This document shows positions 3,575-23,419 of a DNA stretch of 36,336 nt, in pieces. Within the stretch, counting starts at the first letter, position 1; every line of letters starts with the position of its first letter. A program made the position numbers and the translations under genes. The DNA comes from Bacteroidia bacterium (GTDB taxonomy: Bacteria > Bacteroidota > Bacteroidia > J057), in contig JAIBAH010000037.1 of the NCBI GenBank assembly GCA_019695295.1, positions 1 through 36,336 on the forward strand. The letters run 5' to 3'. The notes under the pieces are model-generated. The model was not told the DNA's origin. It saw nothing but the letters and a program-made list of their open reading frames with translations, and ran no database searches.

Positions 3575-3950
3575 CGCATTTTTTTTCACGCTAAGCCGCA
3601 GGGTCGCAAAGGGGGGAGGATATTTTACCATACATCCTCAGCGACTTTTGCGCCTCTGCGAGAAACTCATCACACACCCGGAACCGCAGCAACTTTGCAG
3701 GAAATCCTTCAACCCTTAGCGAGAAACTATATCCCCCCTATTCACCCCAACACCTTAGCAACTTTGCGCCTCTGCGAGAGATTACCCAAACCAATCTTAG
3801 CGACTTTGCGAGAAACTATATCCCCCCTATTTCACCCCAACACCTTAGCGACTTTGCGCCTCTGCGAGAGATTACCCAAACCAATCTTAGCGACTTTGCG
3901 AGAAATCATTACACACCATTCCACCCCTCTTGCGCTTTAGCGAGAGGATA
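3575..3950. repeat. Degenerate intergenic repeat block with 89/90-bp tandem duplication
   Basis: The block is built from variants of TTAGCGACTTTGCG-CCTCTGCGAGA. Plus-orientation words occur near 3637, 3756, 3796, 3844 and 3886, with decayed or partial ones near 3685, 3714 and 3937. A reverse-orientation word (CGCTAAGCCGCAGGGTCGCAAAGG, near 3588) faces the word at 3637, so the two could form a stem. Two nearly identical tandem units, 3721-3809 and 3810-3899, differ by one inserted T and one A/G change. The block is cytosine-rich on the plus strand (CCCCCCTA, CACCCCAAC). The 81-codon ORF across it is made of the repeat itself and I do not regard it as a gene. It lies between a rightward gene end and a leftward gene end. 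Confidence 0.88.
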
Positions 3951-3991: not shown

Positions 3992-6088
3992 TTATTCCAC
4001 CATCATTTTTTCTACGAAACTCCCCTTCCCTGTCTGAATTTTCACCCAGTAAATGCCCTGCGTCCATGAAGCCACACTGAGCGATTTTTCAAATCCGGTA
4101 GTTCCATATTCAGAAGCAGAATAAATCATTTTTCCGGTTAAATCATAGATAGATACAGTAAGGTCTTCTTTTCCGGATAAAATTACTGATAGATTCAGCT
4201 GGTCCTTTACGGGATTGGGGTAAATACCCCATGAATCAACCCCTAAGGCTTGTGGATTAATGGCCAAAGCGGTTTCTACTCCGATAGAAACAGTTACCTT
4301 ACAACCATTAGCATCCGTTACCTGACAACTATATACGCCGGCAGCAAGTCCGGAAGCAGTTACGGAAGTCTGGACAGGAGAGGTACTCCAGGAATAGGTG
4401 TAAGGAGAAGTTCCACCCACAGGATTGACAGTGGCTGTACCAATGGCGTTTCCGGTAGTAGTAGGCGTAGAGGATGCCGTAGCAGTAAGAGCGGCTAAAG
4501 GCTGAGAAACCGTTACAGACTGACTCGTAGTACAGTTATTGGCGTCGGTTACGATACAGGTGTAATTCCCTGCCGCAAGATTTTGAATCGTTGCGCCGGA
4601 AAGTCCGTTGCTCCAGGAGTAAAAATAGGGTGAAGCTCCCCCTGAAGCGTTGGCGGTAGCAGAGCCGGTAAGCTGACCAAAACAAGCAACCGGAACGGCT
4701 GTAGCTGACAGATTGAGTGCAGCAGGTGCGGTCAGGGTTACATTGACAGTGGTAGTACATCCGGAAGCATCCGTTATCTGACATCCATAGTTCCCGGCAG
4801 AAAGCCCGGTGATGGTTGCCGTATTCTGGCCGGTACTCCACAAATAAGTATAGGGTGCAGTGCCATTATTGGGAGTAAGCGTAATCGAGCCATTGCTTCC
4901 TCCACCACAGGATACGTTTACCGGAATGCTTGATACGCTGAGAGGCTGTGCTCCGGGTATTGCTGCCGTTACTATGGTTGTACATCCTTTGGAGTCTGTT
5001 ACGGTACAGGTATAAACGCCGGGAGCAAGATTAGCAGCCGTTGCAGTACTCTGACCACTACTCCAGGTATAGGTATAGGGACTTGTGCCGCCGGAAGGGG
5101 TTACAGAAGCAGAACCGGTATTAACGGAGCAGGTCGGAGGGGTAATCTGTACCGTTCCATTCAAAGCCGCAGCAGGCTGGGAAATAGTTACGCTTCCGGT
5201 TACATAGCAAACGCCTCCTCCTCCGCTTCCGGAAGTAATCTCCACATTATTTACAGCAAAAGAAGGGTCTGCCCCAACTCCATCATCATTGTTGGTCCAG
5301 TTAAAGGCGATTCTCAGGTTGGGGATATTTTCACAGGTTGCAGGTAATATAAAACTTGCCGCTGTCCACTGACCCTGACCTGAAGGGCAGGTTGTGGATT
5401 TTAAAGAAGGCGAAAGAGTATTCCATGAAGTACCGCCATTGGTACTGTATAATAAAGACGCATTGTCTGTAAGCCCCTGACCATTCCCGATATAATCGAA
5501 GGTAAGCGTCATTCCGCTATAACCCATTGTGGATATATTGGGGGATTCCGCTCTCATATTGGTTACCACACAAATACCAATGATACACAAACCGCCAGCG
5601 TTATAGGTTGCCCCGGAGGTAGGGTCAAGCTGATTGGAAACATGAAGGGTATTGTCACCATTCCCTCCAACTCCACAGCCAGGTGGTAAAACCCCACCTT
5701 CTCCGTCTCCGATTACCCAAAGATTATAGTCTGTGTCATTCACTCCTGAGCTTTGATTGATAGCCCACGTCTGAACTCCGTCAAAATCTTCAGAATATAC
5801 GGTCTGCGTTCCTCCTCCCCCGCCAATATTGGCTACTGAAACGCTGTACGTCCCGGCAGCAAGATTACTGGCAGTCTGCGTAGTGGATACGGAAGGAGTC
5901 CAGGTGTAGGTATAGTTTCCGGTTCCGCCGATTACAGAAACAGTGGCACTTCCGTTATTTCCACCAAAACAACTCACATCCGTTTTCTGAATATTCAGTG
6001 AAACACTCGGGGCACAAGGCTGAGCATATAAACTCACACTCAGCAATAGCAGTATAAAGCAATAAAAAGTATTAAATAGTTTCATCAT
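3992..6088 (-). CDS. T9SS-secreted SprB-repeat protein with inserted jelly-roll-like domain and type A sorting domain
   Basis: The 698-aa product starts with a signal peptide (1-23, ending SLYAQ; the second Met at 6085 is an equal candidate). SprB-like repeats follow, each with the pattern C-x-G-x2-G-S-x-GG-x-x-PYTYxWS...L-AGxYxCxVTDxxGC: repeat 1 is split between residues 36-88 and 293-305, and repeats 2-5 lie near 316-382, 386-455, 462-530 and 540-605. Residues about 96-288 are a different beta-rich domain starting YSEDFDG and ending FAVNNVEI, like MAM or lectin-type jelly rolls. Residues about 619-698 are a type A T9SS C-terminal sorting domain (GIYPNPVKDQLNLS, YDLTGKMIY, GIYWVKI, EKMMVE). 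SprB repeats occur in the gliding adhesin SprB and other cell-surface proteins; an adhesive role is likely. No terminator or strong promoter box was seen. Confidence 0.92.
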   Translation of the reverse strand: MMKLFNTFYCFILLLLSVSLYAQPCAPSVSLNIQKTDVSCFGGNNGSATVSVIGGTGNYTYTWTPSVSTTQTASNLAAGTYSVSVANIGGGGGTQTVYSEDFDGVQTWAINQSSGVNDTDYNLWVIGDGEGGVLPPGCGVGGNGDNTLHVSNQLDPTSGATYNAGGLCIIGICVVTNMRAESPNISTMGYSGMTLTFDYIGNGQGLTDNASLLYSTNGGTSWNTLSPSLKSTTCPSGQGQWTAASFILPATCENIPNLRIAFNWTNNDDGVGADPSFAVNNVEITSGSGGGGVCYVTGSVTISQPAAALNGTVQITPPTCSVNTGSASVTPSGGTSPYTYTWSSGQSTATAANLAPGVYTCTVTDSKGCTTIVTAAIPGAQPLSVSSIPVNVSCGGGSNGSITLTPNNGTAPYTYLWSTGQNTATITGLSAGNYGCQITDASGCTTTVNVTLTAPAALNLSATAVPVACFGQLTGSATANASGGASPYFYSWSNGLSGATIQNLAAGNYTCIVTDANNCTTSQSVTVSQPLAALTATASSTPTTTGNAIGTATVNPVGGTSPYTYSWSTSPVQTSVTASGLAAGVYSCQVTDANGCKVTVSIGVETALAINPQALGVDSWGIYPNPVKDQLNLSVILSGKEDLTVSIYDLTGKMIYSASEYGTTGFEKSLSVASWTQGIYWVKIQTGKGSFVEKMMVE

Positions 6089-19677: not shown

Positions 19678-21447
19678 TCAATCAAGAAGAATGTGTACTG
19701 TAGTATTGAAGGGCATGACCCCGTTAGGAAAATTGGTATATGTACCACTGATTACGCAGTCTAGATACTGACCGGGAGCGGAGGGGTAATTTATCACTGA
19801 AACGTTTGAAACATTATATACAGTGTACTGAGCTCCGTTAAACCCATAACCATAAAAATTTGATACATTATAAGTTGACCCAAGTGTATGACTCAAAACA
19901 AATGATAAATACTGTTGATTTCCTCCCCATAAAGAATGGGCAGATACATTAATAAATGAAGTTCCTGCACTTACAGAATCTGAACAATTGAATGTACCAC
20001 CATTGGTAATAATATGTCCTTCCCCGTTCACTTTTTGCAATACATATTCGGGAACAAAGTCCCCACAAGCTAGAAAATCCTGAGACACGTCTCCTCCATT
20101 CAAAAAAACAGTATAAACGTCGCTTTGAGTGTTTTGACTCAATTCTTGTGCAAACATATCAGCATATAAACCTCCAGGTGAACAAGAAATATGGGAGATA
20201 GAATAAATCCCGTTTTCATCTGTTAAATCATAGTAATTATTGCCTCCTACTTGTAACCCTACAACCCCATTAGTAACAGGAACCATATTACAATCTAATA
20301 CTACTCCCGTTAAGGCCGTTATTTCGCCCGAACCTGTATTAAGTACTATATTTCCCAGATTGGTATTGACATTAAATGGCCCGATATTCTGACCCATAAT
20401 CTGGCAATTTTGCCCTTGAATCGGCATTGAGACAGACATTGACAAAACCTCATCATTAGGAATAAGTCCGCCAACCCAACCGGCAGCACTAGTAACGCCT
20501 GAGCGGATACCATAATTGGCAGAAGTAAGCGTGACCCAAAGGTTGGGTAAAGGATTGCCACTAGCATCAACAAGGGTCATCTCTATCGTAATGTTTGCCG
20601 CTTCGGGAGTATCGCAATTCCAGAAAGAGAAATGTTTTACCTTTCCTATATATTTTCCATTATGAATCGTTGCACTTCCTTCTCTCATCCAAAATCCGTT
20701 GGTTTCGTCAAAATGCCATAAAGGAATTTCTGAAGGAGCTACTCCGGCCTGATTAGCCTGAATAGGAAATTCCACAGTTGCCTCGTTTCCGGGGGTAATC
20801 TGAAGGGGTTCTCCCATACTTCCTACCAATTCTACGCCTACCATTCCGTAGGTTTTGAGAAGTTCCGGCACATTGTACTGATTTTTGGAAACCAAATCTC
20901 CCGGCATAATCAGGGAAAGATTGGGGTCATTGGGATTCAGATATTGTCCCAAAACCGTAACGGTTCCTGTATAGGGAGCGCCGTTTTCTTTTTTTACTGC
21001 ATAAGCCGGAAGGATTACTGTAAAGCCATCAAAACTCACAGAACCTCCGCTTACTGCATTAATTGTTCCTCTTGCTGTTTTGGGCAGTAATTGGATGTAA
21101 ATATAATGTGTTTCTCCATCCTGCATTTTAAACGTTCTTGAACCATTAAAAAATTCGTTTTTTTCTATCTTAACGTATCCGTAAGGGCCTTTTAAGTCCA
21201 CGTTCTTTACAAAAAAATAGCCTTCATCATTGGTTTGTACGGTTTTGTTTCCAATACGAGCGGTCGCATTGGGAACCGGTTGCTGATTGTCATCAATTAC
21301 CTGGCCTACCAGATTAATTTTCATCACAGAACTGCTCGGGTCAGGTAAAACAACCATGTTGTTGTCATCAATTGCGCGGTTACATCCGCTGATACTGACT
21401 GATACAATAAGCATCAATAAAGCGAATGCACTAAAAATGTTTTTCAT
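19678..21447 (-). CDS. Surface lipoprotein with carboxypeptidase-regulatory-like domains, tandem paralogue A
   Basis: The 589-aa product is a lipoprotein: signal peptide with lipobox SISGC and Cys22. Residues about 44-125 are a CarboxypepD_reg-like beta sandwich (INLVGQVIDDNQQPVPNATA, QTNDEGYFFVKNV). Residues about 130-290 are a beta domain starting GGSVSFDGFTVILPAYAV and ending PLWHFDETNGFWMREG...HFSFWNCD. Next comes an Ig-like region (MTLVDASGNPLPNLWVTL), a second regulatory-like sandwich (TALTGVVLDCNMVPVTNGVV, LTDENGIYSISHI), and a distinct C-terminal domain ending in PFNTTVHILLD. No enzyme motif is visible, so a structural or binding role at the outer membrane is likely. The gene is closely related to its right neighbour (21647-23419), with the N-terminal half far more alike than the C-terminal part. 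Confidence 0.9.
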   Translation of the reverse strand: MKNIFSAFALLMLIVSVSISGCNRAIDDNNMVVLPDPSSSVMKINLVGQVIDDNQQPVPNATARIGNKTVQTNDEGYFFVKNVDLKGPYGYVKIEKNEFFNGSRTFKMQDGETHYIYIQLLPKTARGTINAVSGGSVSFDGFTVILPAYAVKKENGAPYTGTVTVLGQYLNPNDPNLSLIMPGDLVSKNQYNVPELLKTYGMVGVELVGSMGEPLQITPGNEATVEFPIQANQAGVAPSEIPLWHFDETNGFWMREGSATIHNGKYIGKVKHFSFWNCDTPEAANITIEMTLVDASGNPLPNLWVTLTSANYGIRSGVTSAAGWVGGLIPNDEVLSMSVSMPIQGQNCQIMGQNIGPFNVNTNLGNIVLNTGSGEITALTGVVLDCNMVPVTNGVVGLQVGGNNYYDLTDENGIYSISHISCSPGGLYADMFAQELSQNTQSDVYTVFLNGGDVSQDFLACGDFVPEYVLQKVNGEGHIITNGGTFNCSDSVSAGTSFINVSAHSLWGGNQQYLSFVLSHTLGSTYNVSNFYGYGFNGAQYTVYNVSNVSVINYPSAPGQYLDCVISGTYTNFPNGVMPFNTTVHILLD

Positions 21448-21646: not shown

Positions 21647-23419
21647 CTAATCCTTAAGGATATGAACAGTTGTATTGAAAGGCAAGGGTCCGTTTGGCGG
21701 ACTGGTAAATGTACCACTGATTACGCAGTCCAGATACTGACCGGTCAGGGTAGGGAAGTTGGTAACTGACACATTGGTGATTGTATATTGACTCGTTTGT
21801 AATCCCGTGAATCCGTATCCAATGAAATAGGTTACGTTGTAGGTTCCGCCTCCGGTATCTTCAATATTGAAATTCAACTGCTGCTGACTTCCTCCTCCAA
21901 AGTTATCGACATATACCTGCAGAGCAGGGTTTCCTCCGCTTGCTGAATCAACACAGGAGATGTTTAATGGATTGGTAAACATGAAGTTCGTACCATTTTC
22001 GGTATGAGAAATATATTCTGCTATCGTAACCCCACAAGCTGACAGGTTTTGAGTTATACTTCCCCCGTTCAGCAGGATAGTAGAAGTAGGCCCCTGAACG
22101 AAGTTAGAAAAATCCTGAGCAAAGAAATCAGCATTCACTCCTCCGGGAATACAAGTGATATGAGAGAAAGTGTAAGAGCCGTTGGCATCGGTAATATCGT
22201 ATGCATTTGAGTTGGCTGAGCTCATCATTACAGCACCGTTGGCAACAGGAAGCATATTACAGTCCTGTACAATCCCTGTAATGGAAGTTACGACAACAGC
22301 ACCTGATGCAGTAATGACTACATTTCCCAGATTGGTATTGACGGTAAACGGCCCGATATTCTGAACCATGAGCTGACAATTTGTATTCTGAAGAGGCATA
22401 GAGACCTCCATTACCAGCACTTCATTATTTGGGATGAGGCCACCGACCCAGCCTGTTGCATTTGTGAATCCTGCACGGGTACCATAGTTGACAGAAGTGA
22501 GGGTTACGAAAAGGTTCGGTAGCGGATTACCGCTTGCATCCACAAGGGTCATCTCCAGATTAATATTGGCTGCTTCGGGAGTATCGCAGTTCCAGAAAGA
22601 GAAATGCTTTACTTTGCCGATATATTTTCCATTCTGAATGGTAGCACTTCCCTCTCTCATCCAGAATCCGTTGGTTTCGTCAAAGTGCCAGAGCGGAATT
22701 TCAGTGGGTGCTCCTGAGAGTTGATTGGACTGAACAGGGAATTCTACGATTGCTTCCTGTCCCGGAGTAATCTGAAGGGGTTCTCCCATACTTCCTACCA
22801 ATTCCACTCCTACCATTCCGTAGGTTTTAATCAGTTCCGGTACGTTATACTGGTTTTTGGAAACCAAATCTCCGGGCATAATAAGGGAAAGATTGGGATC
22901 ATTGGGATTCAGATATTGTCCCAAAACCGTAACGGTTCCTGTATAGGGAGCGCCGTTTTCTTTTTTTACTGCATAAGCCGGAAGGGTTACTGTAAAGCCG
23001 TCAAAACTCACAGAACCTCCGCTTACCCCGCTGATTGTTCCCCTTGCAGTTTTGGGAAGTAGCTGAATATATACATAAGTTTCTCCACTCTGCATTTTAA
23101 ATGTCCTGGAACCATTAAAGAATCCGTTTTTTTCTACTTTTACATATCCGTAAGGTCCTTTCATCTCTACATTTTTCACAATAAAGTAGCCGTCGTCATT
23201 GGTTTGAACCGTTTTGTTTCCGATACGGGCCGTGGCGTTGGCTACCGGTTGCTGATTGTCGTCCAGTACCTTTCCAACCAGATTAATTTTCATTACAGCA
23301 TTATCAGGGTCAGGCAGTACTACTGTATTTTTGTCATCAATTGCGCGGTTACATCCGCTTATTCCGATTGATAAAATCAGGATAAGCAATGGGATTAATT
23401 TAAAAAGATTTTTTTTCAT
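21647..23419 (-). CDS. Surface lipoprotein with carboxypeptidase-regulatory-like domains, tandem paralogue B
   Basis: The 590-aa product has the same layout as its left neighbour: lipobox GISGC with Cys23, the conserved NRAIDD after it, a CarboxypepD_reg-like domain (INLVGKVLDDNQQPVANATA, QTNDDGYFIVKNV), the central beta domain closing with WHFDETNGFWMREG and FSFWNCD, a second regulatory-like sandwich (SITGIVQDCNMLPVANGAV, ITDANGSYTFSHI) and the C-terminal segment ending PFNTTVHILKD. DNA of the two genes is identical over 87 nt in the central domain (22899-22985 against 20927-21013), while residues about 440-560 are strongly diverged. No catalytic motifs are seen. It has no clear promoter box, but a TAATATTGC word lies about 30 nt upstream. 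Confidence 0.9.
   Translation of the reverse strand: MKKNLFKLIPLLILILSIGISGCNRAIDDKNTVVLPDPDNAVMKINLVGKVLDDNQQPVANATARIGNKTVQTNDDGYFIVKNVEMKGPYGYVKVEKNGFFNGSRTFKMQSGETYVYIQLLPKTARGTISGVSGGSVSFDGFTVTLPAYAVKKENGAPYTGTVTVLGQYLNPNDPNLSLIMPGDLVSKNQYNVPELIKTYGMVGVELVGSMGEPLQITPGQEAIVEFPVQSNQLSGAPTEIPLWHFDETNGFWMREGSATIQNGKYIGKVKHFSFWNCDTPEAANINLEMTLVDASGNPLPNLFVTLTSVNYGTRAGFTNATGWVGGLIPNNEVLVMEVSMPLQNTNCQLMVQNIGPFTVNTNLGNVVITASGAVVVTSITGIVQDCNMLPVANGAVMMSSANSNAYDITDANGSYTFSHITCIPGGVNADFFAQDFSNFVQGPTSTILLNGGSITQNLSACGVTIAEYISHTENGTNFMFTNPLNISCVDSASGGNPALQVYVDNFGGGSQQQLNFNIEDTGGGTYNVTYFIGYGFTGLQTSQYTITNVSVTNFPTLTGQYLDCVISGTFTSPPNGPLPFNTTVHILKD

Follow-up and report, generated by a model that had tools for sequence, protein, structure and literature searches.

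The window, a stretch of 36,336 nucleotides from a Bacteroidia genome, contains a gene for a 698-aa protein whose first SprB repeat is interrupted by about 195 residues of another kind. This raises the question of whether a complete domain is nested inside a single repeat, as the original prediction held, and what such an arrangement might do. The features of the gene are as follows.

3992..6088, minus strand: whole gene, 698 aa; it encodes a signal peptide, SprB repeat 1 split by its guest domain, four further SprB repeats (2-5) and a sorting domain of T9SS type A.
5825..6010, minus strand: N-terminal part of SprB repeat 1 (aa 27-88), from Pfam SprB, the HMM and strands; five predicted strands and Cys40.
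5810..5824, minus strand: glycine linker 1, GGGGG (aa 89-93), from the sequence; a predicted strand extends into it.
5225..5809, minus strand: guest jelly-roll domain (aa 94-288), MAM/cleaved-adhesin-like by fold matches; NF038128 at 28.2 bits against a cut-off of 30.
5213..5224, minus strand: glycine linker 2, GGGG (aa 289-292), from the sequence.
5168..5212, minus strand: C-terminal part of SprB repeat 1 (aa 293-307), its last strand, with Cys294; splice gain of 12.7 bits and model strand 265-279.
4943..5167, minus strand: SprB repeat 2 (aa 308-382), intact, the internal reference; from Pfam and the model.
4262..4942, minus strand: SprB repeats 3-5 (aa 383 to about 609), from Pfam and the sequence.
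3995..4225, minus strand: T9SS type A C-terminal sorting domain (aa 622-698); PF18962 at 78.3 bits and TIGR04183 at 67.9 bits.

The protein matched the Pfam SprB profile PF13573 in five stretches at 152.6 bits, with a curated cut-off of 28. Its N-terminus is signal-peptide-like, and the TIGR04183 score exceeds the cut-off of 23, which places it among T9SS type A cargo. A T9SS is encoded in the same genome (SprA at 2074 bits by profile search), and the PorP/SprF family is also present.

Repeat 1 was found to read normally up to GTYSVSVANI (aa 79-88). This is followed by GGGGG, the guest domain and GGGG, after which the repeat resumes at its Cys with VCYVTGSVTISQPAA, the usual end of a SprB repeat. 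The insertion site corresponds to a turn that reads TDSKGC, TDASGC, TDANNC and TDANGC in repeats 2, 3, 4 and 5, respectively. The inserted domain and its linkers fall exactly at the predicted positions, 5213-5824. The short DxxGC turn that had been described for repeats 2-5 was present in repeats 2, 3 and 5, but not in repeat 4. Shuffling the protein gave two runs of at least four glycines in 0.8% of cases, counted without requiring that the runs lie at both junctions.

Next, the unity of the two halves was assessed with a splice test, in which the domain and its linkers were excised and the joined flanks were scored against a 72-position SprB profile built for the analysis. Thirty shuffles of the downstream flank served as the control, and the junction was optimised alike for real and shuffled flanks. 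The score of the window copy rose from 76.0 to 88.7 bits after splicing, compared to a gain of 7.4 bits for the best of its 30 shuffles. All 14 nested copies scored higher against the SprB profile once the guest was removed, with gains of 7.5-15.8 bits, while shuffled flanks with equal trimming freedom gained 2.6-5.9 bits on average. Eleven of the 14 copies, including that of the window, exceeded all 30 of their shuffles.

An AlphaFold2 model was built from a 23-row alignment containing 12 nested rows (pLDDT 85.6, pTM 0.60). No reading was based on a single-sequence model of the full protein, which had a pLDDT of 44.9. In the alignment-based model, the strands of split repeat 1 are 7-13, 23-30, 36-41, 49-53 and 56-68, followed by 265-279, and those of intact repeat 2 are 287-293, 302-309, 316-319, 327-331, 334-341 and 347-354. 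The six strands of repeat 1 match those of repeat 2 one-to-one and in the same order, with the guest located between the last two. Both the splice test and the model thus agree that aa 36-88 and 293-305 make one repeat and that neither half is complete alone. Strands 56-68 and 265-279 extend into both glycine stretches, which suggests a two-stranded ribbon that would form the stem of the guest. This pairing was taken from DSSP and not from contacts, and the placement of the guest relative to the repeat cannot be read from the model.

A third line of evidence for a single repeat is that the Cys at the end of the turn was retained in every nested copy. Both this Cys and the early one were found in 155 of 181 intact repeats, 78 of 87 in the window's genome. 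A disulfide between Cys40 and Cys294 likely closes repeat 1 across the insertion. Covariation of the two positions gives no proof of such a bond since both are nearly invariant.

The original prediction had proposed a search for other SprB-repeat proteins with insertions at the same turn, and these were found. The same split arrangement occurred in other genomes at 36-51% identity. In about 12 of the 395 genomes of the class, a search with the nested alignment gave matches that run across both halves of the repeat (a hand count from query ranges). A split repeat was seen under ten family codes (f1, f14, f20, f27, f30, f35, f37, f52, f54 and f61), some of them with at least two copies. The independent genomes include single-contig assemblies, and one pair of loci (L013/L046) comes from a complete chromosome. 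In the window's genome, no second guest insertion was detected among about 176 SprB-repeat matches, weak ones included, in 32 stretches. The claim that glycine linkers mark both junctions held for repeat 1 here, but such linkers are not obligatory, as IMPVT, SGSGTA or AIGG takes their place in several nested copies. Glycine linkers are common in nested copies, and on these sequences they are neither universal nor a defining feature. Two Flavobacteriales MAGs (SKYG; L040 and L041) have two consecutive SprB repeats that are each split by their own guest, the first without poly-Gly. A complete chromosome also contains a second nested SprB/guest region with stop codons and a frame change (L135, G076:C1:3663182-3663998), which looks like a decayed copy.

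One alternative is a plain tandem order, in which a partial SprB repeat, a jelly roll and a chance SprB-like tail follow each other and the halves do not fold together. T9SS domains are often shuffled with glycine linkers, and in three loci (L043, L056 and L064) the guest does lie between domains with G7/G5 linkers. This explanation was rejected as very improbable on the basis of the splice gain, the strand-for-strand agreement with repeat 2 and the recurrence of the split in ten family codes. That the arrangement is an assembly or annotation artefact fusing two genes has a negligible chance of being correct. The genome is a draft of 223 contigs, but the gene is a single uninterrupted frame with no stops, and the independent genomes with the same arrangement, including the complete chromosome, refute this explanation. 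The nested domain in repeat 1 is therefore real as a sequence arrangement and beyond chance, given the Gly-run shuffles, the splice gain, the recurrence in other genomes and the strand order in the model.

The identity of the guest was examined by fold comparison, using rows that span the guest only (model residues 69-266) and so say nothing about the fold of the host repeat. The domain had been predicted to be jelly-roll-like, and its matches are of the MAM/cleaved-adhesin type: meprin MAM (Z 14.5, 154 residues, 2.8 A), the Kgp cleaved adhesin domains K1, K3 and K2 (Z 13.2, 12.8 and 12.3; K1 over 150 residues) and reelin repeat 8 (Z 13.0). Eph ligand-binding domains also matched. All of the matches are extracellular proteins and many are binding modules. 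The fold of the MAM/cleaved-adhesin/reelin group is thus shared over most of the guest. By sequence profile, neither MAM nor Cleaved_Adhesin matched the guest, and Reelin_subrepeat-B reached 18.1-19.1 bits with a cut-off of 27. The best NCBIfam match, choice-of-anchor J (NF038128), remained below its cut-off and covered the second half of that model; only 3 of 23 relatives matched it at E 0.01. A phmmer search of the guest against the PDB returned chance matches only. Since the guest falls below the Pfam and NCBIfam cut-offs despite fold matches of Z 12-14.5, it is, as judged from the model and the profiles, an unnamed relative within a known jelly-roll group. The core motifs W..N..G.ND, GGxSW and NNDDGxGxDPSFA are kept across families at 36-51% identity.

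To trace the history of the guest, 77 copies were placed on a quick IQ-TREE phylogeny with SH-aLRT support only; their host labels had been fixed beforehand from the surrounding sequence. Because the loci were retrieved through their resemblance to the nested alignment, the host proportions are not a census. About 45 of the 77 copies follow signal peptides, at the distal tip of their proteins. The SprB-nested label required 8 changes on the tree, at least 6 of them forced by starred branches. A single clade of all 16 SprB-nested guests was rejected (p-AU 1e-10), which means that the guest entered or left the SprB turn more than once; the change counts cannot separate gain from loss. Without the outlier L132 the single clade gave p 0.015, which is only indicative because that set was chosen after the tree. 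The guests of L132 and L022/L131 belong to one genome (G027) and sit at the same turn, but fall in clades that are far apart. This implies that the turn was entered repeatedly by different guest lineages or that guests were exchanged there.

Other hosts were also observed. In eight loci scattered over the guest tree (L012, L034, L057, L137, L138, L140, L141 and L143), the guest is located at one loop of a host domain with the motifs FPVGK...IxIS / TAEYFxxNP. In L037 it lies in a PKD-like loop. The cleanest Gly-bounded case is L045: at about aa 620-930 of the ORF, the guest interrupts a different Ig-type repeat, GSVALSGLPASGTWTV, at the same GC turn, bounded by GGGGGG and GGGGG.

Split domains are known from the RTX adhesins, in which an Ig-like domain of this kind holds a ligand-binding domain outward and the adjacency of the guest termini is a hallmark (PMC12077191, PMC10865825). 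The present protein resembles RTX adhesins such as MpIBP, FrhA and AhLap in having, by the splice test and AlphaFold2, a discontinuous Ig-like stalk domain from which a second, complete domain buds out, and the termini of the guest would likewise lie together. The Ig-like nature of the SprB repeat was supported by profile matches to decoration and neck-whisker proteins. RTX adhesins are T1SS proteins of Proteobacteria with Ca-binding extenders, whereas the protein studied here has a T9SS signal, SprB repeats, another guest family and Gly linkers; the likeness is one of architecture. No RTX match was found in Pfam up to E 10, and the C-terminus is a T9SS domain rather than an RTX beta-roll/T1SS signal. 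By analogy, then, the protein is a T9SS counterpart that would work like a split-domain adhesin, and it is not an RTX adhesin.

The gingipain cleaved adhesin domains are also T9SS cargo of Bacteroidota, but they stand in tandem with other domains and not inside another domain. Kgp K1-K3 (4itc, 3km5 and 3m1h) share the jelly-roll fold with the guest (Z 12.3-13.2) at 15-21% identity, and the sequence similarity is below family thresholds. Meprin MAM and reelin subrepeat B have the same fold but are eukaryotic, and the Reelin_subrepeat-B profile stays under its cut-off. The Flavobacterium gliding adhesin SprB has the SprB repeat in common with the present protein, but it is a type B adhesin anchored by SprF (PMC12635249, PMC9143113). 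The sorting domain here is of type A, and there are five repeats and a domain nested in one of them. No description of split SprB repeats turned up in a search of open-access papers, a set that does not include the main split-domain survey (doi 10.1002/prot.26689).

Based on the sequence, the model and the RTX analogy, the protein is probably a short, surface-anchored T9SS adhesin in which SprB repeat 1 acts as an Ig-like split domain and the guest, at the outward tip, most likely recognises a ligand, either glycan or protein. Five strands of repeat 1 would form first; the chain would then leave along one Gly linker, at the turn that precedes the sixth and last strand. A complete MAM/cleaved-adhesin-like jelly roll would then fold outside repeat 1, and the chain would return along the second linker to add the last strand. 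With its N and C termini held together at repeat 1, the guest would present its opposite face to the outside, at the end of the stalk farthest from the anchor. The original prediction had placed the guest on the side of a fibre. Because repeat 1 comes first after the signal peptide and the protein is anchored C-terminally, the guest also lies at the outermost end of a short stalk of five repeats; "fibre" and "display" are interpretive terms here. Surface anchoring of type A cargo via the C-terminus is described in PMC9143113. We infer outward display and ligand binding by analogy: since RTX split domains project ligand-binding domains, binding is assigned to the guest in what would be a small adhesin. 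Glycan and protein ligands both fit the fold group.

Another possible explanation accepts the nesting but takes the guest for a structural cap or protective tip without a ligand, a harmless insertion that persisted at a tolerant turn. The rarity of nested copies in the class and the lack of another insert in the window's genome could be explained in this way. We consider it unlikely, since the fold group is rich in binding domains, the core motifs are kept across families and the same guest follows signal peptides at the distal tip of many other proteins. The Gly linkers could also be the marks of a mobile cassette that moves from one host turn to another through recombination within repeats of Gly codons. 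The several host sites and repeated moves would fit such a cassette, and GGAGGAGG is common to both junctions, which are both GGA-rich. However, 8-9 common bases are expected from Gly codons anyway, many nested copies have no Gly runs and no mobility genes were seen in the gene list, so that a cassette seems more doubtful still than a cap.

With the guest again read as the binding part of an adhesin, a broader proposal can be made, which we favour only slightly over its negation. The last hairpin of the SprB repeat may be a reusable display port, at which an unnamed family of MAM-like binding domains was placed repeatedly and independently across Bacteroidia, as well as in at least two other host-domain loops. 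This would be a T9SS counterpart, of separate origin, of the RTX split-domain adhesins. SprB-repeat proteins are numerous in Bacteroidia, with well over 100 repeat matches in this genome, and few of their binding parts are known. Should a split repeat indicate a binding domain, as it does in the RTX adhesins, interrupted repeats could provide a way to find those ligand-binding domains of T9SS surface proteins that are missed by profiles.

Several other features were observed in the window. Just downstream of the gene, at 3715-3905, there is a 90-bp direct repeat (2.1 copies, 97%) with shorter TTTGCG/CTCTGCGAGA-like units. A 33-bp tandem repeat at 6-323 (9.6 copies, 92%) encodes the Thr/Pro/Lys-rich tail (TTPSVTTPAKT) of a PDZ protein that is cut by the window edge. 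Lastly, 19678-21447 and 21647-23419 are tandem paralogous lipoprotein-like genes, which are highly similar over their first two thirds and have diverged at the C-terminus.
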